Assembly: GCF_900186535.1 (NCBI RefSeq)
Contig: NZ_FYDE01000005.1
Coordinates: forward strand, 286,895-350,894
Length of the DNA stretch: 64,000 nt
Source of the DNA: Marasmitruncus massiliensis
Lineage (GTDB): Bacteria; Bacillota; Clostridia; Oscillospirales; Ruminococcaceae
Direction of reading: 5' to 3'
Made by a program: the position numbers and the translations under genes. This document shows, piece after piece, positions 16,571 to 59,051 of this stretch. A model generated the notes under the pieces. It was given only the letters and a program-made list of their open reading frames with translations, was not told the DNA's origin and ran no database searches. The number at the start of each line of letters is the position of its first letter. Position 1 is the first letter of the stretch.

Positions 16571-16651
16571 GACAAGGGCAAACCTGCTGAAAGGCAGGGA
16601 CGCAAAGCCGAGGGTCTAAGGCGTCTTAGGACGTGATGATAGTCTGGCCGC
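16571..16651 (+). ncRNA. GEMM-I c-di-GMP riboswitch aptamer, copy 1 (3' UTR)
   Basis: The sequence matches the GEMM-I landmarks in order: GGGCAAACC (16576-16584), a stem capped by a GAAA tetraloop, GGGACGCAAAGCC, GGGTCTAAGG, a second stem, then ATGATAGTCTGGC. The family binds c-di-GMP. It lies 19 nt after the stop of giant gene 1 on the same strand, not before a gene, and a terminator begins 13 nt later. The next gene is convergent. Confidence 0.85.
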
Positions 16652-16663
16652 TGAAAGTCAAGC

Positions 16664-16700
16664 AAAGCCTGCCCTCTTACGTGGAGGGCAGGCTTTTACG
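16664..16700 (+). terminator. Terminator behind riboswitch copy 1
   Basis: AAAGCCTGCCCTC (16664-16676) pairs perfectly with GAGGGCAGGCTTT (16684-16696), then T. This is the expression platform expected for a transcriptional riboswitch. It could also end the convergent kinase operon. Confidence 0.85.
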
Positions 16701-16796
16701 GCTTTTTACAACTATTATCGGTGGCATCAGACAGGACTTTCGCTATGAATGATGATGAAAGAGTTTAATAAGAAGATTTATATATAAAACAACCTC

Positions 16797-18068
16797 CTAT
16801 GCAGTAGCCTGAAATATAAACCAGCCATCCTTAACCGAAAACTGAAATACACCGCCATGCTTTTCTACGATATGAGCGATGCTTTTTGTGCCAAAGCCAT
16901 GCTCCTGTTCTTTTGATACTGGAAACCCTTGCCTAAATATCGGCTCTGCCTGAAAGCTATTGTGCAGATCAATGCACAGCTTATTATTTTTGGAATACAT
17001 ACGCAGCCGGATGATACGTTTGTTGCTATCAGGTATCTGTTCACAGGCATGGATCGCATTTTCCAAAGCGTTGGACAGAAGCGAGCAAAGCTCAGTATCG
17101 CTAAAGGGAAGCAAATCAGGTAGTTTCGCATCTACTGTCAGCAAGATTGACCCTTGTTTCGCTTTCGCAGCGAAAGCGGACAAAATCAAGTTGACGGTTT
17201 CGTTTCCACAAAAGCGTGTGGGCGTGATGGCATCCATGTCGGACTGGGCAGTTTGTAGGTACTCTTTGATCCCCTCGATGTGTTCTTTGGAGGCCAGTCC
17301 CTGTAAAAGAGCAAAATGGTGGCGCATATCATGCCGATAGGATGCGGCGTTCTGCTGTAACTGCCGCAGAGAAGCAAACTCTGTCTGCGCCAGTCTAAAC
17401 TGTGCATCCAGCATATCCTTTTCTCTTTGAAGGCTTGCCTGTTTTTGTGTCTCAGCGTAGTAAAGGATCACAAACACAAAATAGAAAACAGATATTGTTG
17501 AGGGCATGAACTGTACCGCCCATTCGGCGCCGCTGTAAAGCACATCGGTGTAGATGGCGGTCATATAGTCAAACAGATAGTAAAAAAGCGGAACTCCGCC
17601 TAAAAATAAGCAGGATTTCGTGGACTTCTCCATCAACTGCCGAACAGATCCGGCTACATATCTTTTCAAGAAATAATAGGCCAAAAACACGAATGCTATG
17701 TAAAAAATATGGTCTGCAAGCCTGCTGTCTAAAGCGGCTCCTGCAAGGAAACCAAACCAGCGCGGCGCTTGACAGCAAAGATAACCGGAAAGCACGCTGA
17801 CGGCGGATATGAGCCATGGCCGTTTATGGTACAGCGAGAATATCACAATCAGCGGCAGGTGGATAATCAGCGGATACAGCTTTGATGTCAAATCCAAGCC
17901 CAAAAGCCAATAGCTGGCGGTCTGGACAGAAAGAAAAATGACACAGAGCAGGCCGGTGACGAGCCTGTTTTTCTTTGTGGGTTCTATTCCTGCAAAGAGA
18001 ACGGACACCGTGAGGCCAAAGACCAAAGAAACACCAAATCGCAAGAGTCCTATCACTGTTACTGCCAT
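16797..18068 (-). CDS. GHKL sensor histidine kinase (AgrC/ComD-like)
   Basis: A 423-aa membrane kinase. About six N-terminal transmembrane segments (residues 1-205) are followed by a coiled stretch and the catalytic part: H-box YRHDMRHHF with phospho-acceptor H246, N-box LLSNALENAIHA (N333/N337), and G-box HGFGTKSI (390-397). This is the HATPase_c_5 type paired with LytTR regulators that often sense peptides. ATG 18068 is preferred, with a G-rich SD 8 nt upstream; it follows the regulator stop by one base. No peptide pheromone gene is recognised nearby. The gene converges on riboswitch copy 1. Confidence 0.88.
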   Translation of the reverse strand: MAVTVIGLLRFGVSLVFGLTVSVLFAGIEPTKKNRLVTGLLCVIFLSVQTASYWLLGLDLTSKLYPLIIHLPLIVIFSLYHKRPWLISAVSVLSGYLCCQAPRWFGFLAGAALDSRLADHIFYIAFVFLAYYFLKRYVAGSVRQLMEKSTKSCLFLGGVPLFYYLFDYMTAIYTDVLYSGAEWAVQFMPSTISVFYFVFVILYYAETQKQASLQREKDMLDAQFRLAQTEFASLRQLQQNAASYRHDMRHHFALLQGLASKEHIEGIKEYLQTAQSDMDAITPTRFCGNETVNLILSAFAAKAKQGSILLTVDAKLPDLLPFSDTELCSLLSNALENAIHACEQIPDSNKRIIRLRMYSKNNKLCIDLHNSFQAEPIFRQGFPVSKEQEHGFGTKSIAHIVEKHGGVFQFSVKDGWFIFQATA

Positions 18069-18069
18069 T

Positions 18070-18798
18070 TTAAGCACCCCCCTCCATTTGATAATTCAGA
18101 TATTGCTGCTTCATCTCCTTTGCCTTGCCCTGTGCAACAGGAACAGAGGAAAGGGTCTGCAAGGTAATCTGAAGGTTTTCAATGGTATCCACATACTGCA
18201 TATTCACAAGATAGGAGCGGTGGGGCTTCATAAAACACCCATATTTCATCAGATTATCGCAGACAGGGGAAAAGGCTTCCGTACATTCGATGACTTTACC
18301 GGAGCGCAGATGATAGAGCACGTTTCTGCCGATGACCTCGGCAAAGATCAAATTGGAGATCAATATTTTTTGAATACCCTCATTGCCCTTTATAATAACT
18401 GCATCCTCATCCTTTTCCAATTTAATCTGCTCCAGCAGCTCGTCAAAAGTGAAGAATAGTTTTTCTTTTGAGATTGGTTTGAGTACATAGTTGATAGCCT
18501 TCACCGAATAGCTTTCCAAAGCAAACTCAGGCGATGAGGTAAAGAATAAAATCGGTGCGGTTTTGTCAAAGGTGCGAATTTCCTTTGCCGCATCAATGCC
18601 GGTAAAGCCCGGCATCATAATATCCAGACAGTATATATCAAACCGCTTTCCTTTTTCCAAGGCTGAAATCAATTCAAACCCGTTTGGAAATACAGCGTGT
18701 TCGCAGTTTAGATGTCTTGATGTTCGGTACAGGTCGATGAGCTGTACCATATTGGATAGCTCGTCAATATTATCGTCACAGACCGCAATATGCAGCAT
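18070..18798 (-). CDS. LytTR-family response regulator
   Basis: A 242-aa protein with a receiver domain (1-120: acidic D8/D9, phospho-acceptor D59 in YCLDIMMPG, T87, K107) and a C-terminal LytTR DNA-binding domain (about 135-235, with the RSYLVN motif). LytTR dimers bind two direct repeats about two helical turns apart; exactly such repeats lie before the genes at 19407 and 21565, so these are its probable targets. The start at ATG 18798 has GGAGGG 6 nt upstream. It is in an operon with the XRE gene (20-bp gap) and the kinase. Confidence 0.9.
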   Translation of the reverse strand: MLHIAVCDDNIDELSNMVQLIDLYRTSRHLNCEHAVFPNGFELISALEKGKRFDIYCLDIMMPGFTGIDAAKEIRTFDKTAPILFFTSSPEFALESYSVKAINYVLKPISKEKLFFTFDELLEQIKLEKDEDAVIIKGNEGIQKILISNLIFAEVIGRNVLYHLRSGKVIECTEAFSPVCDNLMKYGCFMKPHRSYLVNMQYVDTIENLQITLQTLSSVPVAQGKAKEMKQQYLNYQMEGGA

Positions 18799-25307: not shown

Positions 25308-25487
25308 ATGACTTACGCCTGCGAGGACTGCGGCTTTTTATTCTGCCGGGTGGGAGCGGTAAAGGAATGCCCTTCCTGTGAAAGACCCCATATTCGCTCT
25401 GCCACCGGGGAAGAAATCGGGAGGCTGGAAAAACTTTTGGAACAAGGAAAAACAAGTTTAGAAATCAAGGAGGGACAGACCTTATGA
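25308..25487 (+). CDS. 59-aa zinc-ribbon protein
   Basis: Residues 5-30 form a rubredoxin-like ribbon (CEDC...C..CPSC), followed by a helix. GGGGG lies 7 nt before the ATG. Its TGA overlaps the ATG of giant gene 2 (ATGA at 25484-25487), so its translation is coupled to that of the surface protein. Function unknown. Confidence 0.65.
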   Translation: MTYACEDCGFLFCRVGAVKECPSCERPHIRSATGEEIGRLEKLLEQGKTSLEIKEGQTL

Positions 25488-28400
25488 ACAAACGACTATT
25501 AAGTATGTTTCTTGCGCTGTGCATGATTGTGACCATGCTGCCGGTATCGGCAATGGCGGAAGAAATACATACGGCCATTGGCGGGAGGGTCGAAATTATC
25601 AGCTTTGCACCGCTGACAGAAACCAAAAAAGCAGTATCACTCGGAACATCCATTGAAGATTTGGAATTGCCCGAAACGCTGACCGCCACAGTGCGGACAG
25701 CCGTGCCTGCCGATGAAAATTCCACACAGGATTCCGGCAGCCCGGAAACGGCAACTCCCACAACGGCCGCCGAGCCTGAATGGGAAGAAACCACCGGGGA
25801 TATTCCAGTGGAATGGGATTCGCCTGACTATGACATGGATACCGAGGGCGTTTATATCTTCACCCCGGTGATTGTGGGTTATACGGTCAGCGCCCCGCTA
25901 CCGGAGCTTACCGTGACGGTGGGTGAACCCGTACTTGATATGCGGGGAATCGGGCTGTTGTCGATTGAAGACACCGATGTTGCCGCAATCGACGACACAG
26001 GCTATGCCACCCTGCAAGAGGCTGTGAATGCCGTTGCAGAGGGGCAGACTATTAAGCTGCTGGATGACATCAACCTCACAGCTACTGTCGAAACCCTTTC
26101 TTCTTCGACTAAGAGCTTCACCCTTGACCTCAACGGCAAGATGCTGAGGTCATCAGACAAGTTGAACCTCCTGCACCGTGGCAGCGGCACACTAACCGTT
26201 ACCGATAGCAAAGGTGGCGGCAAGATAGAGCATGGCTCCATCTGGCAAGCCATTAGTAACCTGAACTACGGAACCATCATCGTATCTGATACCGAGATAA
26301 TAACCACCAGCGGAGATGGACGTGGAATTGTCAACGTCGCTGGAACCCTCGTCGTTTCTCGCAGCAAGGTAAGCGGAGGTACCGGTATTGAAAACAGTTC
26401 CGGTACAGTGACTATTTCCAACAGTACAATAACGGGAACATCATCTTCCGGTAACGCTTATGGCATTTATAGCATACAAAAATGCACTATAAATATTTCC
26501 GGCAGCACAATATCGGGAGAAGGAAACGGCTCCGGTCTATACGGCATTAGAAATACAAACGGCGGCACAGTGAATGTTTCCGGAAGTCCCTCCGTCATCA
26601 AAGGCAAAAGCTATGCTATGCATGGTGTGACGCCGACGCTGAACGGCGTAATAGCCACGGCAAGCGCCGACTACGATGGGGGCAGTGCAGTCGCTTATGA
26701 CGCGGGGAGCATCGCAAGCTACAAATACTTAAAATTTGAGCCTGCCCCTGTTGTCAACTATGACCTATGGGTGGGCGGCGTGCGGGTTACCAGCGATAAC
26801 AAAGATGGTATCACCGGCGCAGGTATTACTGGAACCGTCATCTATGACAGTGACACAAATACCCTCACACTAAACGGCGCTACTATCAACGGGGCCTATG
26901 AAGGGACATGGATTGACAGTACTACATCCGCCTATTACGGCATTTACGCCGACACCGCTTTGAAGATTGAGATGGTGGGAGACAGCACCATCATGGGCAA
27001 AAATCTGGCCAATATCGCCAGCATCGGCATCTATACCGGTAGCACGCTGAACCTCTCCGGTAGCGGCAGCTTGTACGTCAGCGGCGGCACAGGAAAATTT
27101 AGCGTCGGCATATACAGCGGGGGAAGTATCACAATTGAAGGCGGAAGGGTTACGGCTGTCGGCGCAGCAGCAACCCAGACCTCCATCGGCATAGCCTCTA
27201 ATGGCAATATAACGATTCACGATGGAGAAGTAGAAGCGTTAGCGAACACTGGTGCAAGCATATCTTGGGGAATGATGGCAACCAACGCTATCACGATTAA
27301 CGATGGCGAGGTAACTGCAAGCGGAAAAACAGGCTTGCACACAAATGCAGCAGCAGGCTCCGTCACAATCTCCGACGGCATGGTAACTGCAAATGGCTCT
27401 GAGGTAGGCATAGCCGGTGCGGTAACTGTCACAGGCGGCACGGTGACAGTCAAAAGTGATGCGAAGGCGCTGAACGGCAGCTTAACGACTTCGGGTTATG
27501 AGGGATGCATCGTTACTGCGGGAGCCAATAAAAACGGAGATGGTGCGGGTGCGTATAATGCGGAGAATCTCGCAACCTACAAATATATCAAGGTTGAGCC
27601 GGGCGTTGCGAGCACAAATGTTGCCCAAATTGGCAGCACAGGCTACCCAACCCTGCAAGCAGCAGTTGATGCCGTTTCAGATGGGCAGACAATTACGCTG
27701 CTGGATGACATTAACCTCACAACTACTGTCGAAATCCCCAGCACTATGGTCAAGAGCTTCGCCCTTGACTTGAACGGCAAAACGCTTAGTGCCAATAAAA
27801 GCACCGTCATCACACATCTGGGCACCGGAACGCTGACCATTGCTGACAGCGTCAGCGGCGGCATGGTGATTGGACACGCAAATTCATCTACAATTAATAA
27901 TTTCGGAATAATGCATATTTCCGGTGGCACAGTGAGTTCAACCTATATTAATACAACCACAATTTTTAGTAGTGGCTCCCTACATGTTTCCGGCGGCATA
28001 GTGCGCCAAGATGGGGGTGGTTCACAAACAATTTACAACACTGGCACTGTAACCGTTTCCGGCGGAATGATAGAACATCAAAATGGCAGTGCGATTATTA
28101 ACTATGACAGTGGCAACATCATAATTGCAAGTGGTACGCCCGTTATTAAGGGCAGCCATATGGTAATGAACACCCCCCCGGATTTGAGTGGTTATGCTAA
28201 TGTGCGGATTACGGCAAGCAAGACGAAAATAGATGGCACGGAAACCTCTGTAATTACAAAAGAGGATATTGATACCAACATAAAGGTTGGGGCTTATAAA
28301 TACCTCAAGTTTGAGCCTGACGTCATATCGCCTGTGCTTTCGGCAGGGAGCGTAGACCGCACAAGCGACATAGCGGCTACAATCGGCTTTACCACCGACA

Positions 28401-31400
28401 AGGCTGGTACAGCGTATTACCTTGTTACGGACAGCGGCGCAGCCGCTCCGGTGAGCATGGCGGTAAAAGCGGGTACTTCTCTCGGTTCCGTAAACGGAAC
28501 AGTGACGGGCAAAGCCGTTACTCTGACGGCGGGGGCGAAAGATATTTATGTGGTCGTGGAGGATTCGGCGGGTAATATCAGCACCCCATTAAAAATCGAG
28601 GCGGCGGCGTATGTCGCGCCTGATACCACAGCTCCCGTCGTCTCTTCGGTAACGGTGCCTACCAACGGAACTTATTTGCCCGGAACTTATTTGGACTTCA
28701 CAGTAAATTTCAGTGAGAGTGTGGCTGTCACCGGCTCACCGTACATCTCGCTGACGATTGGTTTAGATTCTAGAAATGCAATTTATCAAAGCGGCAGCGG
28801 CACAACGGCGCTGGTCTTTCGTTATACGGTACAGGCGGACGACAGCGACAGCGACGGCATCACCGTCGGCACGTCGTTAAACGCCAGCGGCGGCACCATC
28901 CGGGATGCCGCAGGAAACGATGCAAATTTGGCGCTGAACAGCGTGGGCAGCACGGGCGGCGTACTGGTGAATCCCCCGGCTCCTTCTATCAGCGGCCAGC
29001 CATCCCCTCAAATGGTGGATGAGGGTCAGACGGCTACTTTCTCGGTTACGGCAACCGGAGAGGGTTTAACCTACAAGTGGCAGGTTGACACCGGCAGCGG
29101 CTTTTCCTACATTCCAAACGGTGGAGTATACAGCGGAGCCACAACGGCGACGCTGACCATCACAGGAATAACCGCAGGGATGAACGGCTATCAATACCGC
29201 GCCGTCGTTGCAGGCACCTACCTGCCTGCCGTTACCTCAAACTCGGTCCTGCTAACGGTAAACGCCGCCCCTACCTACACCATCACCGCCGCCCCGACCA
29301 GCAAAGATTTTGGTTCACTGGCAGTGGGCTACAGTGCCCCGGCAACGCAGACCGTGACCATCACAAACACCGGAAACTCCAGCGTGACGCTGACCCAGCC
29401 GACCAGCACCAACTACTCCATCGGCGCACTCAGCACCACCACACTGGCGGCAAACGGCACGGCTACCTTTACCGTTGCACCGAAAGCCAGTCTTGCAGTG
29501 GGTAATTATAATGAAACGCTGACCGTAAGCACCAACCACAGCACCAATGCTACGGTAGAACTGAGTTTCTCTGTAACGGCGGTTCCCACTTACACCATTA
29601 CAGCCGACCCGGTAACCAAGGATTTCGGATCGCTGACAATCGGCTATATTGCCCCGGCAGCGCAGACCGTCACCATCACAAACACCGGAAACTCCAGCGT
29701 GACCCTGACCCAGCCGACCAGCACCAACTATACCATCGGGACACTCAGTACCACCACACTGGCGGCAAACGGGACGGCCACCTTTACCATTACGCCGAAA
29801 ACCGGTCTTGCAGTGGGGAATTATAATGAAACCCTGACCGTAAGCACCAACCACAGCACCAATGCTACGGTAAGTTTAAGTTTTTCTGTGACGGCGGCTC
29901 CTACCTACACCATCACCGCCGACCCGGTAACCAAGGATTTTGGATCGCTGACAATCGGCTACATTGCCCCAGCAGCGCAGACTGTCACCATCACAAACAC
30001 CGGAAACTCCAGCGTGACGCTGATCCAGCCGACCAGCACCAACTATACCATCGGGACACTCAGTACCACCACACTGGCGGCAAACGGCACAGCTACCTTT
30101 ACCGTTGCACCGAAAGCTGGTCTTGCAGTGGGGAATTATAATGAAACGCTGACCGTAAGCACCAACCAAAGCACCAATGCTACGGTAAGTTTAAGTTTCT
30201 CTGTGACGGCGGCTCCGAACTACACCGTCACCTTCAACCCGAACGACGGCACGGTCAGTGAAACTTCACGCTTGGTTGCACCCGGTGCTGCGGTAGGAAC
30301 GCTCCCGACACCGACACGCTCTGGCAGTTACAGCTTTGACGGCTGGTATACGGCGGCAAGCGGCGGAATTCAAATCTCCGCAGGCACAACCGTCAGTGCA
30401 AATGTGACCTACTATGCTCATTGGACTTACACCGGTGGCGGTGGAGGTGGCGGCGGCAGCTCCTCAAACGACAACAGCAGCCCTGTCATCGTCACCCCAC
30501 CCGCACCGGATAAGCCGAATTCACCCACTCAGGGGGAAATCAAGGTTCCCGGCACAGTGGACGGCAAGGGCAATGTCACAGTGAGCCTCACTGACAAAAC
30601 TGTGACTGACGCTTTTGATAAAGCATTGGCTGAGGCCAAGAAAAACGGCACGGAGCAAAATGGCATCACGGTGGTTCTCCGTGTGGACACCGGTAGCAAG
30701 ACCGGTTCTCATGTTACGGTCAATCTGCCAAAGGCCGTGCAGGATGCCATCATTGCAAAGAAAATCGTCAACACCATTGTGGTGGTAGATAACCCCGACA
30801 TCAGAGTCGGTATGGATTTGGCGACCGTACAGGAAATCAATAAGCAGGCAAAATCTGATGTAAATATCACCGCCACCCGCACGGACAGCGGTAAGCTGAC
30901 GACCGAGGCGAAAAAGGCGATTGGTAGCCGTCCGGTATTTGACCTCAAGGTGAACTACGGCAACGGCAAGGCGGTCAGCAGTTTCGGCTCAGGCAGCGTA
31001 TCGGTAACCATCCCATATACCCTCGGTGCAAATGAAAAGGCGGGGAATGTGCAGGCTGTGTATGTGGACAGCAAGGGTAAGGTGCATTGGCTGATAAACT
31101 CGGTCTATGACAGTGCGGAAAAGGTACTGCGCTTCAGCACAGATCATTTTTCCACCTACGGCATCGGCTATAAACAGGCCAACACCGCATTTACTGACAT
31201 TGCAGGCCATTGGGCAAAGGAAGATATTGAGTTTGTGGCAAGCCGTGGGCTGTTCAGCGGAACTTCTGAAACCAAGTTCAGCCCGAACACCGCTATGACA
31301 AGAGGAATGTTCGTCACGGCACTGGGGAGGCTTGCAAACGCCGATGTGAGCGGCTACGCAAAGAGCACCTTCAGCGATGTGAAAGACGACGCCTACTATA

Positions 31401-32035
31401 TGGGTTACATTGAGTGGGCAAGTAAAAACAACATTGTAAACGGGGTTGGCAATGGAAAGTTTGCCCCGGATCAGTCCATCACCCGTGAGCAAATGGCGGT
31501 CATTATGAGCAATTATGCCAAGACCATCGGTTGTACTCTGCCGAAGGTCCATGTGGAAAATATCTTTGCCGACAACGGCAAAATCAGTACCTACGCCAAG
31601 GAAGCCGTGAAGCAGATGCAAATGGCAGGCGTGATCAGCGGCAAAAACGGCAATCTCTATGATCCGCAGGGTACAGCCACAAGAGCCGAGGTGTCCGCTG
31701 TTCTGCGCCGCTTTGTGAAGCTGGCGATCTCCAGCGACACAGCGCAGGGCTGGTCCATGAACGATTCCGGCAAATGGATGTACTTCAAGGACGGCAAGCC
31801 CCTCACCGGCAAGCAGGACATCGACGGGGCGACCTATACCTTTGACCAGTACGGTGTGACAGCGGATGTGCCGAAGAATTTGCGGTACACCACCTACACC
31901 GTGCAAAAGGGCGATAGCTTCTGGAGCATATCCCGCAAGCTGGGCTGCCCCATGAGCGAGCTGGAACGACTGAACAACAAGAGCCGGTTTTCTCTTATTC
32001 TCCCCGGCGAGGTGCTGAGAGTACCGGAGAAGTAA
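25484..32035 (+). CDS. Giant SLH surface protein 2 (beta-helix/ASH modules, LysM end)
   Basis: A 2183-aa exported protein. Signal peptide 1-27; Ig-like segment about 100-150; two beta-helix regions of pectate-lyase-like turns (about 165-420 and 450-940); Ig/cadherin-like domains (945-1262); three nearly identical 105-aa choice-of-anchor/ASH-type repeats (1265-1579); an InlB-B-like repeat; poly-Gly linker; the conserved pre-SLH domain (about 1673-1890); three SLH domains (1899-2083); one choline-binding-type unit; and a LysM domain (2136-2183) that binds peptidoglycan. Only this giant ends in LysM. It is translationally coupled to the zinc-ribbon gene and so to the LemA operon. A GEMM-I-like element follows. 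Confidence 0.88.
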   Translation: MNKRLLSMFLALCMIVTMLPVSAMAEEIHTAIGGRVEIISFAPLTETKKAVSLGTSIEDLELPETLTATVRTAVPADENSTQDSGSPETATPTTAAEPEWEETTGDIPVEWDSPDYDMDTEGVYIFTPVIVGYTVSAPLPELTVTVGEPVLDMRGIGLLSIEDTDVAAIDDTGYATLQEAVNAVAEGQTIKLLDDINLTATVETLSSSTKSFTLDLNGKMLRSSDKLNLLHRGSGTLTVTDSKGGGKIEHGSIWQAISNLNYGTIIVSDTEIITTSGDGRGIVNVAGTLVVSRSKVSGGTGIENSSGTVTISNSTITGTSSSGNAYGIYSIQKCTINISGSTISGEGNGSGLYGIRNTNGGTVNVSGSPSVIKGKSYAMHGVTPTLNGVIATASADYDGGSAVAYDAGSIASYKYLKFEPAPVVNYDLWVGGVRVTSDNKDGITGAGITGTVIYDSDTNTLTLNGATINGAYEGTWIDSTTSAYYGIYADTALKIEMVGDSTIMGKNLANIASIGIYTGSTLNLSGSGSLYVSGGTGKFSVGIYSGGSITIEGGRVTAVGAAATQTSIGIASNGNITIHDGEVEALANTGASISWGMMATNAITINDGEVTASGKTGLHTNAAAGSVTISDGMVTANGSEVGIAGAVTVTGGTVTVKSDAKALNGSLTTSGYEGCIVTAGANKNGDGAGAYNAENLATYKYIKVEPGVASTNVAQIGSTGYPTLQAAVDAVSDGQTITLLDDINLTTTVEIPSTMVKSFALDLNGKTLSANKSTVITHLGTGTLTIADSVSGGMVIGHANSSTINNFGIMHISGGTVSSTYINTTTIFSSGSLHVSGGIVRQDGGGSQTIYNTGTVTVSGGMIEHQNGSAIINYDSGNIIIASGTPVIKGSHMVMNTPPDLSGYANVRITASKTKIDGTETSVITKEDIDTNIKVGAYKYLKFEPDVISPVLSAGSVDRTSDIAATIGFTTDKAGTAYYLVTDSGAAAPVSMAVKAGTSLGSVNGTVTGKAVTLTAGAKDIYVVVEDSAGNISTPLKIEAAAYVAPDTTAPVVSSVTVPTNGTYLPGTYLDFTVNFSESVAVTGSPYISLTIGLDSRNAIYQSGSGTTALVFRYTVQADDSDSDGITVGTSLNASGGTIRDAAGNDANLALNSVGSTGGVLVNPPAPSISGQPSPQMVDEGQTATFSVTATGEGLTYKWQVDTGSGFSYIPNGGVYSGATTATLTITGITAGMNGYQYRAVVAGTYLPAVTSNSVLLTVNAAPTYTITAAPTSKDFGSLAVGYSAPATQTVTITNTGNSSVTLTQPTSTNYSIGALSTTTLAANGTATFTVAPKASLAVGNYNETLTVSTNHSTNATVELSFSVTAVPTYTITADPVTKDFGSLTIGYIAPAAQTVTITNTGNSSVTLTQPTSTNYTIGTLSTTTLAANGTATFTITPKTGLAVGNYNETLTVSTNHSTNATVSLSFSVTAAPTYTITADPVTKDFGSLTIGYIAPAAQTVTITNTGNSSVTLIQPTSTNYTIGTLSTTTLAANGTATFTVAPKAGLAVGNYNETLTVSTNQSTNATVSLSFSVTAAPNYTVTFNPNDGTVSETSRLVAPGAAVGTLPTPTRSGSYSFDGWYTAASGGIQISAGTTVSANVTYYAHWTYTGGGGGGGGSSSNDNSSPVIVTPPAPDKPNSPTQGEIKVPGTVDGKGNVTVSLTDKTVTDAFDKALAEAKKNGTEQNGITVVLRVDTGSKTGSHVTVNLPKAVQDAIIAKKIVNTIVVVDNPDIRVGMDLATVQEINKQAKSDVNITATRTDSGKLTTEAKKAIGSRPVFDLKVNYGNGKAVSSFGSGSVSVTIPYTLGANEKAGNVQAVYVDSKGKVHWLINSVYDSAEKVLRFSTDHFSTYGIGYKQANTAFTDIAGHWAKEDIEFVASRGLFSGTSETKFSPNTAMTRGMFVTALGRLANADVSGYAKSTFSDVKDDAYYMGYIEWASKNNIVNGVGNGKFAPDQSITREQMAVIMSNYAKTIGCTLPKVHVENIFADNGKISTYAKEAVKQMQMAGVISGKNGNLYDPQGTATRAEVSAVLRRFVKLAISSDTAQGWSMNDSGKWMYFKDGKPLTGKQDIDGATYTFDQYGVTADVPKNLRYTTYTVQKGDSFWSISRKLGCPMSELERLNNKSRFSLILPGEVLRVPEK
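29276..30220 (+). repeat. Three tandem 315-bp coding repeats
   Basis: Units start at 29276, 29591 and 29906, an exact 315-bp period (105 aa) with very high identity, especially between units 2 and 3. Each encodes a DFGSLTIGY...VTITNTGNSSVTL type ASH-like domain. The high identity points to recent duplication or gene conversion. Confidence 0.9.
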
Positions 32036-32052
32036 AATAACAAATAAATAAA

Positions 32053-32132
32053 GCTATGGGCAAACCCGGTTAAAGCCGGGGTCGAAAGCCGAGGGTCTAA
32101 GGTGTCTTAGGACGCTATGATAGTCTGGCTGC
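32053..32132 (+). ncRNA. GEMM-I c-di-GMP riboswitch aptamer, copy 2 (core altered)
   Basis: Same landmarks as copies 1 and 3 (GGGCAAACC, GGGTCTAAGG, ATGATAGTCTGGCTGC), but the core strand reads GTCGAAAGCC instead of GACGCAAAGCC: one substitution and one deleted base. The P2 loop is TAAA. It sits about 18 nt behind giant gene 2. Ligand binding may be lost. Confidence 0.75.
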
Positions 32133-32141
32133 AAAGAAGCT

Positions 32142-32186
32142 GCAAGGGCCTGCTCTCTATTCTAAGGGCGGGCCCTTGCCATATTT
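32142..32186 (+). terminator. Terminator behind riboswitch copy 2
   Basis: GCAAGGGCC (32142-32150) pairs with GGCCCTTGC (32171-32179), with further pairing inside, then ATATTTT. Confidence 0.7.
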
Positions 32187-43083: not shown

Positions 43084-43089
43084 ATAACC

Positions 43090-51223: not shown

Positions 51224-51266
51224 GAAGAACCATGCCTTGAAAAGGCACGGAGCAATGGAGGTTATT

Positions 51267-54200
51267 ATGGAAATAAAACGAATGGCGGAGCACATAAACA
51301 GCGTTTCCGTCCGAAAAAAAGCAAAGCGGCTATTGGCGGCGGCGCTTGCTCTGCTGATGGTGAACCCGATTACAGGATATGGTGTTTCTGCTCATGAACA
51401 GGAAACAGAAATAATCACCGCTTTCGCGCAGCTGTCCGATGGAATTGCCACACAGCAGCTGCCGGTAGGTGCGGAGGAATCGGACATTCATCTGCCCGAT
51501 ACGCTGAATGTGACAGTCAGTATTTCTTCTGCCGATACGGCAAAAAGCACTGAGGAGGAATCCCAACCCGACAAAACTGCTACGGAAGAATCCGAACCTG
51601 ACGAGAGCATTGCGGAAGAACCACAGACAGATGGAACCGCAGACAGGGATTCCACCGTTTCGGGAAATGACGCGGAGGAATCGCAGGAAGAAGAAAATAG
51701 CGCAGAGGACAACACCGCTACCGACAGCGAGGCTACAGTGGTCTTGGATAGCGGCGAAGTGCCTTTAGCCGCAAGCACCACCGGTTCTGCAATCAGCGCG
51801 GATTTAGAGGCTGCGGAAACCGAGCAGGCGGAAACTGAGGAAATCACCTCGGAAGAGCGGACGCTGACGGGCATCACATGGCAAATCAATGCGGAGCGCA
51901 GCGGTTCGGACACCTTTGATTCCGAAAGCGCAGGTGCGGTATTCTTCTATGAGCCGGTTCTGCGGTCGGGCTATGCCCTGGCGGATGGCGTGAGTCTGCC
52001 GCAGATTACTGTGACGGTGGGCGCACCCGTAGTGGTAGGGCTGGTCACCGCCTTTAATGCGCTTGCGGACGATATCCGCTGGCAGTCGGTGGAGTATGGC
52101 ACGGCGCAGGAGCAGTTAAACCTCCCCAAAACCCTGTCTGCCATGGCGGAGGGTGAAGCGGTGCAGGCTTCTGTAACATGGGAAGCCGAACCTGCCTATG
52201 ACGCAAATACCAAGGGTCTGTATCTCTTCACGGCAAGGCTTGCTGAGGGATTTCGCACCACAGCGGAGCTACCCCATCTCGCCGTTGTGGTGCGTGCACC
52301 AGAGATGCGGATGGCACGCAGCTTTGGCGGAGGCGCACAGGAAGCCGATCCATTCCTGATTGGCACGGCAGCGCAGCTTGCCGAGATTGCCGCGCTGACC
52401 AATGCTGGTCAGCTTGAAACGATCTTTCTTGGTACGTCCAGCGGCAAGGTATACTTAAAGCTGGACAATGACATTGACCTTTCGGGCTATAACGCCGACG
52501 GCGGCTGGACGCCCGTCGGAACTGGCACAAACAACTTCAAGGGCAGCTTTGACGGTGACAATCATATGATTACCGGGCTTACCCTTAATCGCCCCGATGA
52601 CTACTTTCAGGGGCTGTTCGGATATATCGGCAACGGCGGAATGGTGCAAAACATAGGTGTGGTGGATGCCAGTGTCAGTGGCAAAGACTATGTCGGCGGC
52701 GTGGCGGGATATGTTTATGGCGGCACGGTGCAAAACTGCTATGTCACCGGCAATGTCAGCGGCGCAGGCTTTGTCGGCGGCGTGGCGGGGCAGGTTGACA
52801 GCTACGGCACCATGAAAAACTGCTACAACACCGGCAGTGTCAGCGGCACAAGCAAGGTCGGCGGTGTGACAGGGCGTATTAACGGTGGCACCGTACAAAG
52901 TTGCTACAACACCGGCAGCGTCATCGGTACCGGAGACTATGTCGGCGGCGTGGCTGGGGATACTAGCGGCGGCGATGGGATGCAAAACTGCTACAACACC
53001 GGCAGCGTCAGCGGCGCAGGCTTTGTCGGCGGTGCGGTGGGCTTGCTTGACGGTGGCACCGCGCAAAGCTGCTACAGCACCGGCAGTGTCATCGGCACCG
53101 GTCAATATGTCGGCGGCGTAGCGGGACGGGCTGTAACCAGCACACTGCAAAACTGTGCTGCGCTGAACCCTTCTGTTTCTGGCGGCAGCAATGCGGGCCG
53201 TGTGGCGGGGAATATTATGGGCGGCACTCCCTCCGGCAACATCGCCTTTGGCGGCATGACGGTAAACGGCAGCACAGCAACAGGGGGTTCGGCAGACAAT
53301 AATAACGGCGCAGACACGACTGTTGCCGCCCTCAAGGCGGATACAGCCGGTGTGCTTTCTAGTCTATTCACCTCAGCAAACGGCTGGGAATACACAGCGG
53401 GCGGGCTGCCCATCCTCACCGGTTTTGCCGCGGATGTACAGGACAGCACCATGCCTGTGCACATCGCAGACGGCACCGATCCGAATTTCCGTGGCGAGGG
53501 CACGGAAGCAAACCCCTACCAAATCAGCACCCCTGCCCAGCTTGCCAAGCTGGCGGAGCTTGTGAATGATGCGGCTACCAACGCAGCTTATGGCGGTACA
53601 ATGGTTTATTATAAGCTGATGAATCCTCTCAATCTTTCGGGCTATGCCACGGGTGAGGGCTGGGTACCCATCGGAGTTCATTCAGCAAAACCGTTTAATG
53701 GTATATTTAACGGTAACGGCAACCAAATCACAGGGCTGACCATCAATCGTACCGGCAGTATAAATCAGGGGCTTTTCGGACATATCGGCGGTGGCGGCAT
53801 GGTGGAAAATCTTGGTGTGGTGAATGTCAGCGTCAACGGCGGGGATAATACCGGCGGCGTGGCAGGATATGTCGGTGGCGGCATAGTGGAAGATTGCTAT
53901 GTCACCGGCAGTGTCAGTGGTAATGATGCGGTAGGGGGCGTGACGGGATATGTCAATTTCGGTGGTAGGGTGCAAAGCTGCTATGCCACAGGGCAGGTAA
54001 CCGCCACAGGAAGCACCGTGAATGCCGGCGGCTTGGTAGGGCGTGTACAAGATGGCACGGTAACAAACTGCGCCGTACTGAACTCCGGTGTAACAGCGAT
54101 ATCCACCGCCCAGGGTATCGGCCGTGTAACGGGTCGTCTGCAAAGTGGCGGCCTCTCCGGCAACATCGCCTTTAGCGGCATGTCGGTGATGGTGGGCGGT

Positions 54201-57200
54201 ACTCCGAAAAGCATCACCGACAGCGCAACCGGCTTAGACGGCGCGGGCCAAAACAAAGCCGCACTGCAAACAGCGGACGCTTTCCCCGCAGTGTTTATAA
54301 ATAGCCCGTGGACATACACAGCAGGCAAGCTGCCCGGCTTGGGCGGCACAGCGGCGGATATGCCTGCGTACTTACAGGCGGAGGGCGCAGCCCCCTTTGA
54401 GGGTGCGGGAACTTCCAGTGAAAACCCCTTCCTTATCAAAACCGAGGAGGATCTCGCAAGGCTGGCGCAGTTTACAAATGCGGGGGATAACTTTTACTCC
54501 CAGTATTTTAGGCTGGAAAATAACCTTGACCTTTCAGGTTATGCAACCGGCGGGGGCTGGGTTCCCATTGGAACAGACGATATGGCAACCTTCAAGGGTA
54601 TCTTTAACGGCAACGGCAAGACGATAACAGGGCTGACCATCAACCGCCCCGATGCCAACTATCAGGGGCTGTTCGGATATATCGGCACAGGCGGCACGGT
54701 GCAAAGCTTAGGTATACTAAATGCTAGCGTCAGCGGAAAAATCTCCGGCAGCGTGGCGGGGCGAGTTGACGGCACGTTGGAAAACTGCTACAGCACTGGC
54801 AGCGTCAGCGGTGAAAGCAGTGTCGGCGGCGTGGCAGGTATGGTTGACGGCACGGTTAAAAACTGCTACAGCACCGGCAGCGTCAGCGGTATAAGCAATG
54901 TCGGCGGCGTGGCGGGGATTCTTTACGGCACGGTGATAAACTGCTACAGTACCGGCAGCATCAGCGGCACAAACTATATCGGCGGTGTGGCGGGGTATGT
55001 GACTACTGCCGCCAGCTCCGTGCAAAACTGCGCCGCGCTCAATCCCTCCGTTTCCGGCAGCAGCAATGTCGGTCGTGTTGCGGGGGATGTTTACAATGCA
55101 ACCCTCACAAGCAACTACGCCTACACCGGCATTTCCAGTACATGGGATAACAAAGGAATCAATGCAAAGGACGGTGCGGATTTAACCTCCGCCACCCTCT
55201 TTGGCGGCAATTTCTGGACGAATGCGGCCAACTGGGACACCTCCGCTTGGGATTCTGGCATATGGACTTTCGCAGACGGCAAGCTGCCCACCCTAAAGAA
55301 TATTGCAGGGCAAAGCGGCGCGCCGGAGCGGTATCTGCTTAATCTTTCTACCGATGCACTGTCTGTGATTCTTTCGGGAACGGATGTAAGCGGCAGCGGC
55401 AGTGCCTACACCGCCCTTGCCAGCGCCAACTCGCAGACGGTCACGGTAAACGTCACCGGCATGGAGCGCTGGACAGAACCGGATGTGACCATCACGGCAA
55501 AAAATGCGGCTGACAGCGGCGTCATAAGCGTGACCTCCGTAGAAAACGGCAGCGGCACGTTTGACATTCCTGCCGTTTTTTCCGGCGGTATCATCATCAC
55601 CACCCAATCGGTCAGCAATCCCAACAATAAGCAAGATGTCACCCTCACAGTAAACAAGAGGGAGTTGACGGCGGCGGACTTTACAATTGACCCGAGTGAC
55701 AGAATTACTCCCTATAGCGGTGTGATACAGTCGCTTCCCGTCATCGCACCCAGCGGAGCGGGTGCTGTAACGCTGAAATATGACGGCACAGCGACCCCTC
55801 CGGCAAATGCCGATACCTATGCGGTGACGGCGAATGTAACCGCTGGAACGGTGTATAACGTAGCAACCGATATTTCGCTGGGTAATTTCAGCATTGCGCC
55901 CAAGTCAGTTACCATCACAGGTGTAACCGCACCAGCCCGCACCTATGACGGTACCACCTCCGTTGCGCTTGCCGGCGGAAGCCTTACCGGCGTGGAGAGT
56001 GGCGATGCTGCAAACCTAAGCTTTACTCTCGGCACAGGCACAACAGAGGACGCAAATGCGGGAACTAACAAGCCGGTCACGATAACCGGCGTTGCCCTGA
56101 CCGGCACGGCTGCGGACAACTACACCCTAACGCAGCCTACCGGCGTAACGGTGAACATCACCCAAAAACCGCTGACCATTTCCTCCGCTACGGCAGCAAA
56201 CAAACAGTATGACGGTAATCTGGACGCTACGGTTACAGATGTGGTGTTTAGCGGTTTGGTTGACAGCGAGAATTTTGTGATTGGTACCGACTATACCGCC
56301 ACAGGCTCGTTTGACAACGCAGATGTTGGCACTGGAAAAACCGTCACCATAACACCCATACTCAATTCTACGGAAATGGCGAATAATTACAGCCTTCTCG
56401 GCACGGTTAATGCAACCGCCAATATCACCGCCAAACAGATTGACGGCACGGTTTCCATCGTCGTAACCCAAGGCGGCGGCGATTCTGGCAGAATCGATGC
56501 GGGTGATACCCTCACGGCGAACACCGGCGGCATTACGCCCCATGATGCAACCCTTTCCTACCAGTGGTATCGGAATGGAACCCCAATCAGCAGTGCCACC
56601 GGTACAACCTACACGATAGCAGGCATAGGCACCGACCCGGTTGGTTCACTCATCACTGTGCGGGTAACGGGAACGGGCAACTATGCGGGCAGCAAGACGA
56701 GCGACCCGGTGGAAATCGGCAGAATCCCACTGGGAGGCAGTGTTTCCATCGACGGAACAACCGCCTTGGGCGAAACGCTGACGCTGAATACCGCTTCCCT
56801 GACACCGAGCGACGCAACCACCTCCATCGAGTGGCTTCGTGAGGGCAGCATAATCAGTGGTGCGGTCGGCAGCAGTTACACCATCACCAGAAGTGATCTT
56901 GGAAAAATAATCTCCGTGCAGGCGACCGGCACAGGTAATTACAACGGCACAATAACCGCAGAAAAGGCAGTCCCTGCAGTCGTGCCCGATGCGCCGGTAC
57001 TGACCGCCACGGCGGGCAACACGCAAATTACGCTGAACTGGACAGTGCCCTTTAACGGCGGCAGCGCGATTACGAAATATCAAATTTCCAGCGATAACGG
57101 CACGAATTGGACGGATGCCGGACTTGTGACCACCCATACCGTTACCGGGCTGACCAATGGCACAGCCTATACCTTTAAGCTTCGGGCAGTCAATGGAGTT

Positions 57201-58904
57201 GGTAACGGTGCAGAAGCTTCCGCAGCGAGTACGCCTGCTGCGCCTCACTCCGGTGGTGGCGGTTCTTCTTCTGGAGGAAGCTCTGCTACAGCACCTGCCA
57301 TAACGCCGGAAAAGACACCGAACCAGCCGGTAACGGCGGCGGCTCCCGTCACGGCAGCAGCAGGAAAGAACGGTTCGGCAAGTGCGTCCATCCCGGAGAA
57401 ATCCGTAACGGATGCCATTGCCAAGGCGCAGGCTGATGCAAAAGCGCAGGGCAAAACCGCTAATGGGATCTCTGTGAAGCTGAACGTTACCATGCCTAAG
57501 GGTTCTACTTCCCTGACGGCAACGCTAACCCGCAATTCTCTGAACAGTCTTGTGAGCGCGGGAGTAACCAGCCTTGAACTGAATGGCTCGCCTGTGACGG
57601 TTTCCTTTGATAAAAAGGCGCTGGCGGAAATCCAGAAGCAAAGCACCGGTGACATCAAAATTGCTGTTGCACCTAAAATCAACCTTTCTAAGGGCGCGAT
57701 AAAAATCATCGGCACAAGACCGGTCTATGACATCACTGTAGGTTATGGAAACGGTAAGACCGTATCCAGCTTTAGCGGTGGAATTGCGACCGTATCTATT
57801 CCGTATGTGCTGGGCAAGAACGAAGCAGACGGAGGTCTGTATGCCGTTTACGTAGATGCAAAGGGCAACGCCACCCGTATCGCAGGCTCTGCCTATGATA
57901 CGAACAGCGGATGCGTCATTTTCACAACAACACATTTTTCACAGTACGGCATCGGTTATACGGCTCCCAGCGCTAAACTGGCGGATATCTCCTTCCATTG
58001 GGCAAAGGAAAGCATTGACTATGTGGTCAGTAGAGGGCTTCTCTCCGGCACATCGGAAACCACCTTTGAGCCGAACAGCGCCATGACCCGCGGAATGCTG
58101 GTGACGGCACTTGGCAGATTAGCAGATGTAAATGTGAAATCCTACAGCACAAACAGCTTCACCGATGTCAAAATCGGAAGCACATTCCAGCCTTACATTG
58201 AGTGGGCGTACAAAAAAGGCATTGTGCAGGGTACTGGTAACGGCAAGTTTGAACCTGACCGTGCTGTCACCCGTGAGGAAATTGCGGTAATCTTTGCAAA
58301 TTACGCCAAGGCAACCGGCTACACCCTGCCTGTGACGCGCACCGCGACAACTTATACGGATGCCTCTGGCATTGGAAATGCCTACAAGACAGCAGTCACA
58401 GCCATGCAGCAGGCAGGCATCATGATGGGCGGTACAGGTAATAAATTCAATCCGAAAGCCAGTGCCACACGCGCGGAGGTTTCCTCTATGCTGAGTCGCT
58501 ACATCAAACTGACCATTGATCCGGATACAGCACAGGGCTGGGCGAAAAACGACGTTGGACAGTACCTGTACTACAAGGACGGCAAGGCTCTCGCCGGGAC
58601 ACAGACCATCAACGGCGTAAAGTATTTCTTTAACACCGACGGTACGCTGAAAACCGGCTGGGTAAAGGACGGCGGCAACTGGTGCTTTTACTCCGGCAAC
58701 ATCATGCTGGTAGGCTGGTGGGATCTTGGTGCAAACGGAAACAACAAGACCTATTACTTTTCCAAGGACGGCCTGATGGTATCCGGCAAGTGGCTGGAAA
58801 TCGACGGCAAGTGGTATTACTTCTATGCCGATGGCTCCCTTGCCAGAAGCTCTAAGGTGGACGGCTATGAGGTCGATGCAAACGGCATGAGAAAGACGCA
58901 GTAA
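51267..58904 (+). CDS. Giant SLH surface protein 5 (GLUG/MBG/fn3 type; cassette 3)
   Basis: A 2545-aa exported protein; ATG 51267 has GGAGG 5 nt upstream. The N-terminus (about 1-250) is nearly identical to giant 4. The middle then resembles giant 1: Ig-like segment, three GLUG-repeat blocks (about 355-1345), MBG-type domains (about 1470-1730), Big-type repeats (1730-1905) and a fibronectin type III domain (about 1908-1990, AYTFKLRAVNGVG). A Gly/Ser linker, the conserved pre-SLH domain (about 2015-2230), three SLH domains (2235-2420) and choline-binding-type repeats (2425-2545) follow. Probably an adhesin. A c-di-GMP aptamer follows the stop, as after giants 1 and 2. Confidence 0.87.
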   Translation: MEIKRMAEHINSVSVRKKAKRLLAAALALLMVNPITGYGVSAHEQETEIITAFAQLSDGIATQQLPVGAEESDIHLPDTLNVTVSISSADTAKSTEEESQPDKTATEESEPDESIAEEPQTDGTADRDSTVSGNDAEESQEEENSAEDNTATDSEATVVLDSGEVPLAASTTGSAISADLEAAETEQAETEEITSEERTLTGITWQINAERSGSDTFDSESAGAVFFYEPVLRSGYALADGVSLPQITVTVGAPVVVGLVTAFNALADDIRWQSVEYGTAQEQLNLPKTLSAMAEGEAVQASVTWEAEPAYDANTKGLYLFTARLAEGFRTTAELPHLAVVVRAPEMRMARSFGGGAQEADPFLIGTAAQLAEIAALTNAGQLETIFLGTSSGKVYLKLDNDIDLSGYNADGGWTPVGTGTNNFKGSFDGDNHMITGLTLNRPDDYFQGLFGYIGNGGMVQNIGVVDASVSGKDYVGGVAGYVYGGTVQNCYVTGNVSGAGFVGGVAGQVDSYGTMKNCYNTGSVSGTSKVGGVTGRINGGTVQSCYNTGSVIGTGDYVGGVAGDTSGGDGMQNCYNTGSVSGAGFVGGAVGLLDGGTAQSCYSTGSVIGTGQYVGGVAGRAVTSTLQNCAALNPSVSGGSNAGRVAGNIMGGTPSGNIAFGGMTVNGSTATGGSADNNNGADTTVAALKADTAGVLSSLFTSANGWEYTAGGLPILTGFAADVQDSTMPVHIADGTDPNFRGEGTEANPYQISTPAQLAKLAELVNDAATNAAYGGTMVYYKLMNPLNLSGYATGEGWVPIGVHSAKPFNGIFNGNGNQITGLTINRTGSINQGLFGHIGGGGMVENLGVVNVSVNGGDNTGGVAGYVGGGIVEDCYVTGSVSGNDAVGGVTGYVNFGGRVQSCYATGQVTATGSTVNAGGLVGRVQDGTVTNCAVLNSGVTAISTAQGIGRVTGRLQSGGLSGNIAFSGMSVMVGGTPKSITDSATGLDGAGQNKAALQTADAFPAVFINSPWTYTAGKLPGLGGTAADMPAYLQAEGAAPFEGAGTSSENPFLIKTEEDLARLAQFTNAGDNFYSQYFRLENNLDLSGYATGGGWVPIGTDDMATFKGIFNGNGKTITGLTINRPDANYQGLFGYIGTGGTVQSLGILNASVSGKISGSVAGRVDGTLENCYSTGSVSGESSVGGVAGMVDGTVKNCYSTGSVSGISNVGGVAGILYGTVINCYSTGSISGTNYIGGVAGYVTTAASSVQNCAALNPSVSGSSNVGRVAGDVYNATLTSNYAYTGISSTWDNKGINAKDGADLTSATLFGGNFWTNAANWDTSAWDSGIWTFADGKLPTLKNIAGQSGAPERYLLNLSTDALSVILSGTDVSGSGSAYTALASANSQTVTVNVTGMERWTEPDVTITAKNAADSGVISVTSVENGSGTFDIPAVFSGGIIITTQSVSNPNNKQDVTLTVNKRELTAADFTIDPSDRITPYSGVIQSLPVIAPSGAGAVTLKYDGTATPPANADTYAVTANVTAGTVYNVATDISLGNFSIAPKSVTITGVTAPARTYDGTTSVALAGGSLTGVESGDAANLSFTLGTGTTEDANAGTNKPVTITGVALTGTAADNYTLTQPTGVTVNITQKPLTISSATAANKQYDGNLDATVTDVVFSGLVDSENFVIGTDYTATGSFDNADVGTGKTVTITPILNSTEMANNYSLLGTVNATANITAKQIDGTVSIVVTQGGGDSGRIDAGDTLTANTGGITPHDATLSYQWYRNGTPISSATGTTYTIAGIGTDPVGSLITVRVTGTGNYAGSKTSDPVEIGRIPLGGSVSIDGTTALGETLTLNTASLTPSDATTSIEWLREGSIISGAVGSSYTITRSDLGKIISVQATGTGNYNGTITAEKAVPAVVPDAPVLTATAGNTQITLNWTVPFNGGSAITKYQISSDNGTNWTDAGLVTTHTVTGLTNGTAYTFKLRAVNGVGNGAEASAASTPAAPHSGGGGSSSGGSSATAPAITPEKTPNQPVTAAAPVTAAAGKNGSASASIPEKSVTDAIAKAQADAKAQGKTANGISVKLNVTMPKGSTSLTATLTRNSLNSLVSAGVTSLELNGSPVTVSFDKKALAEIQKQSTGDIKIAVAPKINLSKGAIKIIGTRPVYDITVGYGNGKTVSSFSGGIATVSIPYVLGKNEADGGLYAVYVDAKGNATRIAGSAYDTNSGCVIFTTTHFSQYGIGYTAPSAKLADISFHWAKESIDYVVSRGLLSGTSETTFEPNSAMTRGMLVTALGRLADVNVKSYSTNSFTDVKIGSTFQPYIEWAYKKGIVQGTGNGKFEPDRAVTREEIAVIFANYAKATGYTLPVTRTATTYTDASGIGNAYKTAVTAMQQAGIMMGGTGNKFNPKASATRAEVSSMLSRYIKLTIDPDTAQGWAKNDVGQYLYYKDGKALAGTQTINGVKYFFNTDGTLKTGWVKDGGNWCFYSGNIMLVGWWDLGANGNNKTYYFSKDGLMVSGKWLEIDGKWYYFYADGSLARSSKVDGYEVDANGMRKTQ
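52340..55300 (+). repeat. GLUG-repeat coding region of giant protein 5
   Basis: Many degenerate 60-75 bp coding units (NCYNTGSVSG...VGGVAG), in three blocks, closely related to those at 9640-13080. This is ready substrate for homologous exchange. Confidence 0.8.
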
Positions 58905-58920
58905 GCAGAACAAATCAATA

Positions 58921-59004
58921 GAGCTATGGGCAAACCCGGTTAAAGCCGGGGACGCAAAGCCGAGGGTCTAAGGTGTCTTAGGATGCTATGATAGTCTGGC
59001 TGCG
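58921..59004 (+). ncRNA. GEMM-I c-di-GMP riboswitch aptamer, copy 3 (3' UTR)
   Basis: GGGCAAACC, stem with TAAA loop, GGGGACGCAAAGCC, GGGTCTAAGG, second stem, ATGATAGTCTGGCTGC: an intact core. It begins 17 nt after the stop of giant gene 5. The next plus-strand gene (sigma-like) is about 420 bp away, behind two terminators. Confidence 0.85.
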
Positions 59005-59013
59005 AAGTTAGTC

Positions 59014-59051
59014 AAAAGCCTGCCCTTCGCAATTTTGAAGGGCAGGCTTTT
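59014..59051 (+). terminator. Terminator behind riboswitch copy 3
   Basis: AAAAGCCTGCCCTTC (59014-59028) pairs perfectly with GAAGGGCAGGCTTTT (59037-59051). The layout is the same as copy 1. Confidence 0.85.

Follow-up and report, generated by a model that had tools for sequence, protein, structure and literature searches.

c-di-GMP-I aptamers behind giant surface-protein genes of Marasmitruncus massiliensis appear to belong to the leader of a conjugative element's regulator module

A stretch of 64,000 nucleotides (nt) from Marasmitruncus massiliensis (GCF_900186535.1, NZ_FYDE01000005.1:286,895-350,894, forward strand), referred to here as the window, carries a series of giant genes for predicted surface proteins, and giants 1, 2 and 5 are each closely followed by an aptamer of the class I cyclic di-GMP (c-di-GMP) riboswitch, otherwise known as GEMM-I (RF01051). 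The presence of these three aptamers had been proposed in a preliminary description of the same DNA, as had their position on the coding strand, and both are confirmed by the covariance model, which matches the + strand with 75.0, 59.1 and 70.0 bits against a gathering score of 35 bits. When the whole window was searched with Rfam at the gathering threshold, nothing beyond these three and one pemK RNA was found. Blocks 1, 2 and 5, as they are called here after the giants in front of them, had been placed in the 3' untranslated regions (UTRs) of the surface-protein genes. They do lie 3' of these genes and are without a promoter-like site of their own, but comparison with related loci suggests that the block is not primarily the 3' UTR of a giant gene and is instead part of the leader of an integrative and conjugative element (ICE), a leader that it opens in 10 of 18 loci.

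Giant 1 (8642..16552, +), in which Pfam finds SLH domains, GLUG, MBG_2 and C-terminal choline-binding repeats, has its stop codon 14 nt before the model start of the block 1 aptamer (16567..16655, +; E 6.8e-13), the core of which is intact. The aptamer is followed by a covarying hairpin, hairpin 1 (16664..16696, +; the stem coordinates are taken from a scan listing on the - strand), and what lies downstream of this hairpin looks like a decayed remnant of the leader. Giant 2 (25484..32035, +; SLH domains, Ig-like domains and a C-terminal LysM by Pfam) ends 13 nt before the block 2 aptamer (32049..32136, +; E 5.3e-9), with hairpin 1 at 32142..32179 (+) from a scan for terminator-like sites. Giant 5 (51237..58904, +; SLH domains, YDG, GLUG, fn3 and choline-binding repeats by Pfam) ends 14 nt before the block 5 aptamer (58919..59007, +; E 1.1e-11), the first element of the ICE leader. 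The blocks had been described as beginning 17-19 nt past the stop codons; that they stand close behind the stop is correct, although the model starts at 13-14 nt and the earlier starts fall 2-4 nt inside it.

The ligand contacts of the aptamer, which we take to be G20, A47 and C92 in Vc2 numbering, have their counterparts in blocks 1 and 5, and across 14 aligned blocks the G, the central A and the C are invariant. In block 2 the conserved GACGC core is missing its C, seen as a gap at column pair 12/37, and this C is presumably the base (C45) that pairs with the ligand-contact G20. Since that C is missing, the block 2 aptamer is probably impaired.

Downstream of the blocks the three loci are not alike. 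Blocks 1 and 2 face convergent genes for GHKL sensor kinases at distances of 141 and 194 nt (16797-18077 and 32331-34289, both - and identified by Pfam). Beside each kinase is a LytTR response regulator (18070-18804 and 36525-37373, -, Pfam), and at block 2 a 756-amino acid (aa) protein without a Pfam or NCBIfam match (34258-36528, -) lies between the two. The preliminary description held that a block never stands just before a plus-strand gene, which is true of blocks 1 and 2 but not of block 5, where a sense leader and a sigma-like gene follow in a linkage that recurs in other genomes. That the aptamers of blocks 1 and 2 are 5' switches of a sense gene was considered and rejected, as no sense open reading frame (ORF) of at least 100 aa begins within 400 nt by a simple ORF rule; placement in a 5' leader before a sense gene is seen for block 5 and not for blocks 1 and 2.

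The leader opened by block 5 is of a kind that spans 430-500 nt and consists of the aptamer, hairpin 1, a mini-ORF and a terminator-like hairpin, ahead of the sigma-like gene. In the window hairpin 1 (59014..59051, +), supported by sequence and covariation, has the tail GCGGCUUUU, and a second hairpin, GGATATC...GGTATCC (59081..59120, +; RNAalifold of 7 leaders), covers the Shine-Dalgarno sequence of the mini-ORF MKIFRFRPFPRCK (59123..59164, +). The mini-ORF has 10-13 codons in 10 of 11 leaders, with L215, whose contig ends at its aptamer, counted as the eleventh, and in L234 the frame has 43 codons (L with a number denotes loci elsewhere, and W1, W2 and W5 are blocks 1, 2 and 5). Hairpin 3, AAAAAAGTTAGCAC...GTGCTGACTTTTTT (59222..59264, +), is terminator-like by eye, with no call from the simple scan, and an inverted repeat covers the Shine-Dalgarno sequence of the sigma-like gene. 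This gene (59423-59842, +) encodes a sigma-70-like regulator (TIGR02937, 48.1 bits against a cutoff of 42.9; Sigma70_r4_2) and starts 415 nt after the aptamer in the same sense. After it come the pemK RNA motif (60159-60255, +; RF02913, 63.3 bits), a PemK toxin gene (60474-60860, +; PF02452), a large serine recombinase (61108-62688, +; Pfam Resolvase/Recombinase; 91% identical in L162) and a recombinase-like protein with weak NCBIfam recombinase matches (62690-63583, +; 87% identical in L162).

Related loci were collected by a search with a core pattern, by searches with the ends of giant genes and by RF01051 searches, and this gave 18 related blocks (W1, W2, W5, L052, L053, L064, L162, L163, L164, L176, L178, L185, L230, L231, L233, L234, L237 and L238). 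A giant with an SLH-type C-terminus stands upstream of 14 of them, judged in L230, L231, L234, L237 and L238 by sequence from the C-terminal part alone, and in the 12 giant-linked blocks measured the gap from stop codon to aptamer is 13-22 nt. The shared leader and a sigma-like gene follow the block in 10 of the 18 (W5, L052, L064, L162, L163, L164, L185, L231, L233 and L234), and only six of these ten stand behind giants. The other four follow asd (L052), an Erm-like methyltransferase gene (L064; 199.4 bits, slightly below the cutoff of 212), a diguanylate cyclase gene (L162) and another gene 287 nt off (L233); the diguanylate cyclase gene of one element lies 53 nt upstream of the aptamer.

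What follows the common leader varies as well, as there are two different sigma-like genes. The first is succeeded in the window and L162 by pemK RNA, PemK and serine recombinases, and in the genome G061 by pemK RNA, PemK, an Xis-like helix-turn-helix protein and a tyrosine integrase adjoining a tRNA gene; the second (L163, L164 and L185) is succeeded by dinG RNA and, where examined, a helicase. Because upstream and downstream genes both vary, the leader is the constant part of these loci. In a search in the other direction, from the sigma-like genes, which is less biased, all five close homologues (at least 82% identity) with enough upstream DNA carry an intact aptamer (the window, G061, G357, L185 and L164; L215 is cut by its contig end). 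Both kinds of sigma-like gene have a long inverted repeat over the Shine-Dalgarno sequence (CCTCC...GGAGG; 59375-59430 in the window, and relatives), the sequence of which differs between the two and which is perhaps a convergent solution to translational control.

It had been suggested that the blocks are what remains of a tandem array, every member of which formerly controlled the surface gene after it. This idea did not survive the comparison, as the intact module-linked copies, 10 of the 18, lead into the sigma-like gene, four of those are not behind a giant, and the upstream genes vary. The remnants look like remnants of the ICE leader rather than of a surface-gene array, because intact blocks lead into the module and six of the eight copies without it score 0-62 bits.

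The aptamers themselves are not a chance resemblance, given their RF01051 scores and the covariation over 10 related blocks. In this alignment, which takes in aptamer and hairpin, both partners differ in 11 of 36 pairs, and 96.9% of cells are paired. None of 500 shuffles reaches either figure or the covariation score; the number of further pair types is reached by 13 of 500, and structures slid along the alignment give at most 3 double-sided pair changes. With 14 blocks, double-sided changes are seen in 14 of 38 pairs. Neither alignment includes L176, L178, L237 and L238, copies that are badly damaged or doubtful. All ten module-linked aptamers score 70-84 bits, whereas among those without the module 70 bits is reached by two of eight (W1, 75; L230, 79.1), the other six being L237 (62.2), W2 (59.1), L053 (56.9), L238 (48.3), L176 (30.2, below the gathering score) and L178 (no match, entered as 0 bits).

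A second feature that sets the blocks apart is the lack of a promoter close by. In a scan for sigma-A-like sites only, with a score of 9.5 that was set after the scores had been seen, a nearly perfect TTGACA-17-TATAAT site is present within 80 nt upstream of 84 of 144 other aptamers of the family (one of the 145 had too little upstream DNA) and of none of the 16 related blocks scanned (0/10 in the first set; L176 and L178 lie outside the scan). At a score of 9.0 the counts are 91/144 and 1/10, and within 300 nt upstream three of the 16 blocks reach 9.5, with none beyond shuffles. As no promoter-like site is close to the aptamer, it is most likely that the block is transcribed from the preceding gene. 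A promoter between stop codon and aptamer was also considered and rejected, as 13-22 nt leave no room for one and the 80 or 300 nt upstream give no more signal than shuffles do.

The element to which the leader belongs can be followed to the other end of the window, where a MobL relaxase (840-3713, +; Pfam MobL), a Toprim protein (3861-5279, +; Pfam Toprim_2) and a VirD4 coupling protein (5346-7160, +; Pfam T4SS-DNA_transf) are encoded. By its genes the window thus holds a relaxase, a coupling protein and an integrase on one element, as in a MobL/VirD4 ICE. Genes 78-85% identical to MobL, Toprim and VirD4 are found in G061 and G357, with the leader on the same contigs, and Lacrimispora defluvii (G399:C75) has VirD4 (82%) and the leader on one contig. 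The stretch from VirD4 to the aptamer is, from the coordinates, about 51.8 kb long in the window, 5.6 kb in G061, 3.7 kb in G357 and 15.8 kb in L. defluvii. Because VirD4 and the leader bracket this slot on one contig in all four elements, the giants are ICE cargo, with VirD4 as the left border of the slot and the aptamer as its right end.

Taken together, it is suggested that the block is a promoterless c-di-GMP riboswitch that gates read-through from cargo into the regulator module of the ICE, with detached copies travelling behind giants, and we give this reading about an even chance. The block would be the first part of a promoterless leader standing directly before the regulator and integration module, that is, the sigma-like gene followed by PemK and serine recombinases, by PemK, Xis and a tyrosine integrase, or by a DinG-type region, and in one MobL/VirD4 ICE family the leader bounds the cargo slot on the right. 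RNA polymerase would arrive by read-through from whichever cargo gene is upstream, here giant 5, and c-di-GMP bound to the aptamer would change the share of transcripts that get past hairpin 1, the mini-ORF and hairpin 3 and reach the sigma-like gene. In this way a host signal tied to surface life could gate the expression of ICE genes. Giants may have been copied or moved along with the first part of the leader, and the copies detached in this way, blocks 1 and 2, would no longer face the module and would tend to drift. The copies behind giants 1 and 2 are accordingly offshoots of the ICE leader. Block 1 is intact; where the giant 1 transcript ends may still depend on it, or it may keep antisense transcription of the convergent kinase gene in check.

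If this is true, c-di-GMP, a signal of surface attachment, would directly set the mobility regulator of a conjugative element by way of RNA, with read-through from whatever cargo the element carries as the input, and promoterless, intergenic riboswitches could be studied in these loci as a simple test system. The case is also a warning that a riboswitch behind a gene need not act as a 3' UTR regulator of that gene, its likely role being visible only by comparing relatives. A more far-reaching version, possible although we lean against it, is that the riboswitch at the border couples transcription of the cargo, either giant adhesin-like proteins or the diguanylate cyclase that makes the ligand, to the excision regulator, so that transfer follows the sessile or motile state of the host; the giant-linked copies would again be offshoots, one of them maybe making a c-di-GMP-dependent RNA antisense to a sensor kinase.

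A number of observations weigh against the gating of read-through by the block. No switching structure was identified by an overlap scan and folding of 10 blocks, and hairpin 1 forms beside an enforced outer aptamer helix in all ten, at 0-1.8 kcal/mol from the best fold. An overlap of the 3' strand of the aptamer with a terminator arm passes the shuffle test in one of ten blocks against 35 of 145 other aptamers (4/10 against 84/145 by a looser score), and the classic aptamer/terminator overlap was for this reason rejected as the expression platform. In some blocks the aptamer could pair with a GCGGC or CGGCUUU that follows hairpin 1, but no consistent picture emerges from the folds. The blocks had been described as an aptamer plus a terminator, and the hairpin is indeed strong and GC-rich, but its U tract is poor, at most short, and the simple scan calls the full-length hairpin a + strand terminator-like site for block 2 only. 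Because a promoter-like TATACA-16-TATAAT (59282-59309) follows hairpin 3 in W5, the sigma-like gene may have its own promoter. Nineteen more distant sigma homologues are without an aptamer within the flank examined, and BLAST found no leader there except for a 55-nt match at the Shine-Dalgarno region of L190. No VirD4 turned up close to the five leaders that precede the second sigma-like gene, and since the one VirD4 in the 87-kb L185 record is distant (29%), this sigma-like gene may be part of a different ICE family. W1 and L230 are intact although they stand without the module. The difference in aptamer score with and without the module (at 70 bits, one-sided Fisher p = 0.0015; rank test p = 0.006) is to be taken as a trend, as the 70-bit cutoff was picked after the data had been seen, and the 18 loci are related, with several from aptamer searches that favour intact copies, so that tests assuming independence overstate the significance.

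The same lack of a switching structure would be expected if the blocks were passengers, a conserved 3' sequence used for recombination of cargo in which the aptamer fold is kept by descent and regulates nothing now, while hairpin 1 merely helps to end transcripts. In several pairs, such as W1/L230 and W5/L233, the point at which differing upstream genes give way to common downstream DNA does lie within a few nt of the stop codon, and two of the six low-scoring copies without the module are near an IS200/IS605-like gene. We consider this explanation rather unlikely all the same, as the ten module-linked aptamers stay at 70 bits or more while their helices change by compensatory substitution, which neutral drift would not keep.

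With the gating of read-through into the ICE module preferred, the original proposal that c-di-GMP governs where the giant mRNA ends or how stable it is becomes improbable, although it would account for the aptamer having no promoter-like site, for the 14 of 18 blocks that sit at a narrow distance behind SLH-type giants, and for block 1 and its relative L230 being intact without the ICE module. Against it, four of the ten module-linked blocks stand behind other genes, and six of the eight copies linked to giants alone have scores of 0-62 bits. The survey of relatives that had been called for did find the 3' aptamer repeatedly, yet several giants lack it, including giants 3 and 4, where Rfam and inspection of the flanks show no block, and that of L186.

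The convergent kinase genes raise a further alternative, in which c-di-GMP-dependent read-through from giant 1 makes an RNA antisense to the GHKL kinase gene and so ties c-di-GMP to a two-component system. W1 and L230 share 92.9% identity over 1614 nt covering the block and the kinase end, and the homology starts at the giant stop codon; the block and the same convergent kinase gene have thus been kept behind different giants, that of L230 being of the LysM type, with both aptamers intact. A precedent exists in the Clostridioides difficile prophage riboswitches cdi1_4 and cdi1_5, which, according to passages of PMC7699646, have their own promoter P1 and lead into antisense RNAs of an antitoxin. 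Antisense control is nevertheless very improbable, as the arrangement is conserved in a single pair of loci. The aptamer of block 2, which likewise stands opposite a kinase gene, has lost a core base, and an inverted repeat flanked by runs of A and T can be made out by eye between block 2 and that gene.

The favoured role of the block, at the entry to the ICE module, can be compared with known systems. It shares the aptamer sequence and structure of the GEMM-I riboswitch (RF01051) and differs in standing behind a stop codon without a promoter-like site in 80 nt, in that no sense gene follows blocks 1 and 2 over the next 400 nt, and in a hairpin 1 without visible overlap with the aptamer. Class I aptamers without a coding sequence downstream are not confined to blocks 1 and 2, as parts of PMC6200980 and PMC7699646 describe Cdi-1-4, -5, -6, -7 and -10 of C. 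difficile as having no detected downstream gene, cdi1_4 and cdi1_5 being duplicates in homologous prophage regions. Unlike these two, the blocks lack a promoter-like site and stand behind cargo genes of conjugative elements. The class I switches of C. difficile are mostly off switches, going by passages of PMC6200980. For Tn916, attenuation at orf12/tet(M) with read-through to orf7-xis-int has been proposed (PMC7288454, in part), and as far as that account goes the leader described here is similar in that hairpins and a short ORF are associated with a regulator as well as with excision and integration genes, the mini-ORF and sigma-like gene being possible counterparts and an Xis-like protein and Int following in G061. 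It differs from Tn916, so far as described there, in the added c-di-GMP aptamer, in its place after a cargo gene and in the variable module downstream. In the open-access literature no paper was found that joins 'c-di-GMP riboswitch' with 'integrative and conjugative element', or 'c-di-GMP-I riboswitch' with '3 UTR'.

That c-di-GMP is the ligand is plausible because the genome holds 12 GGDEF and 6 EAL matches. One further RF01051 match in the genome has the canonical 5' placement, 65 nt upstream of a GGDEF frame of 884 codons, and no class II c-di-GMP aptamer was found in a search in which the controls gave no match either. An RF01051 profile search of 396 genomes of the family gave at least 92 with a match, and placement was surveyed for 151 aptamers, that is 148 from 82 genomes among the matches listed and the three in the window, with genes called by the simple ORF rule and a sense gene taken as one of at least 100 aa within 400 nt downstream. 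Such a gene follows 124 of the 151, a co-directional stop codon lies within 60 nt upstream of 12, and the near stop without a downstream sense gene is found in three, blocks 1 and 2 and L053, a locus from another genus, all of them behind SLH giants. Tight abutment to an upstream stop is not special by itself, as L054, L066 and L081 have it before a sense gene. In the canonical L054 and L066, which lie between a GGDEF gene and a sense gene, the aptamer likewise begins 11-13 nt after a co-directional stop, but unlike in the blocks its 3' strand pairs into a terminator and the next sense gene is within 70 nt. Another genus of the same family (L036; G122:C2:2062000-2073566) seems to have a genuine tandem array of aptamers in 5' position, where four c-di-GMP-I aptamers stand on one strand in 12 kb, each close before a long frame of 320-1063 codons by the simple ORF rule.

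Several smaller observations concern the mobility of the blocks and their neighbours. Searches of viral contigs with the end of giant 1 gave no match, and BLAST of block and leader against plasmids and phages gave only a weak 71-base match, to a Ruminococcus albus plasmid, covering the upstream and aptamer portion. Close behind the damaged block L178 of G061 is an IS200/IS605-type transposase gene (Y1_Tnp by Pfam, L201:8404-8874), and the gene close behind the damaged L238 of G400, whose aptamer is cut at its 3' end, is presumably another, going by a sequence motif only. About 1.1 kb past the L234 aptamer there is a second stretch 88% identical to window positions 16639-17110, where block 1 has its 3' part and the kinase gene its end; recombination between two leaders could have given this arrangement. 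The 3' flank common to giants 3 and 4 (43060-43420 and 50353-50670) is of another kind, with AACAGCCTATTTCACGGATAATCA and, later, an inverted repeat ending CTGGTAGTTTTT. A frame without a Pfam match, 232 or 192 codons long, comes next in each case, as if giants 4 and 5 had been copied along with their 5' neighbour. Finally, pemK RNA (RF02913) and dinG RNA (RF03082) follow the sigma-like genes of these elements (the window, L163, L164, L185, L215, L216 and L217) and also those of many relatives without an aptamer, and both look like parts of ICE regulator modules.

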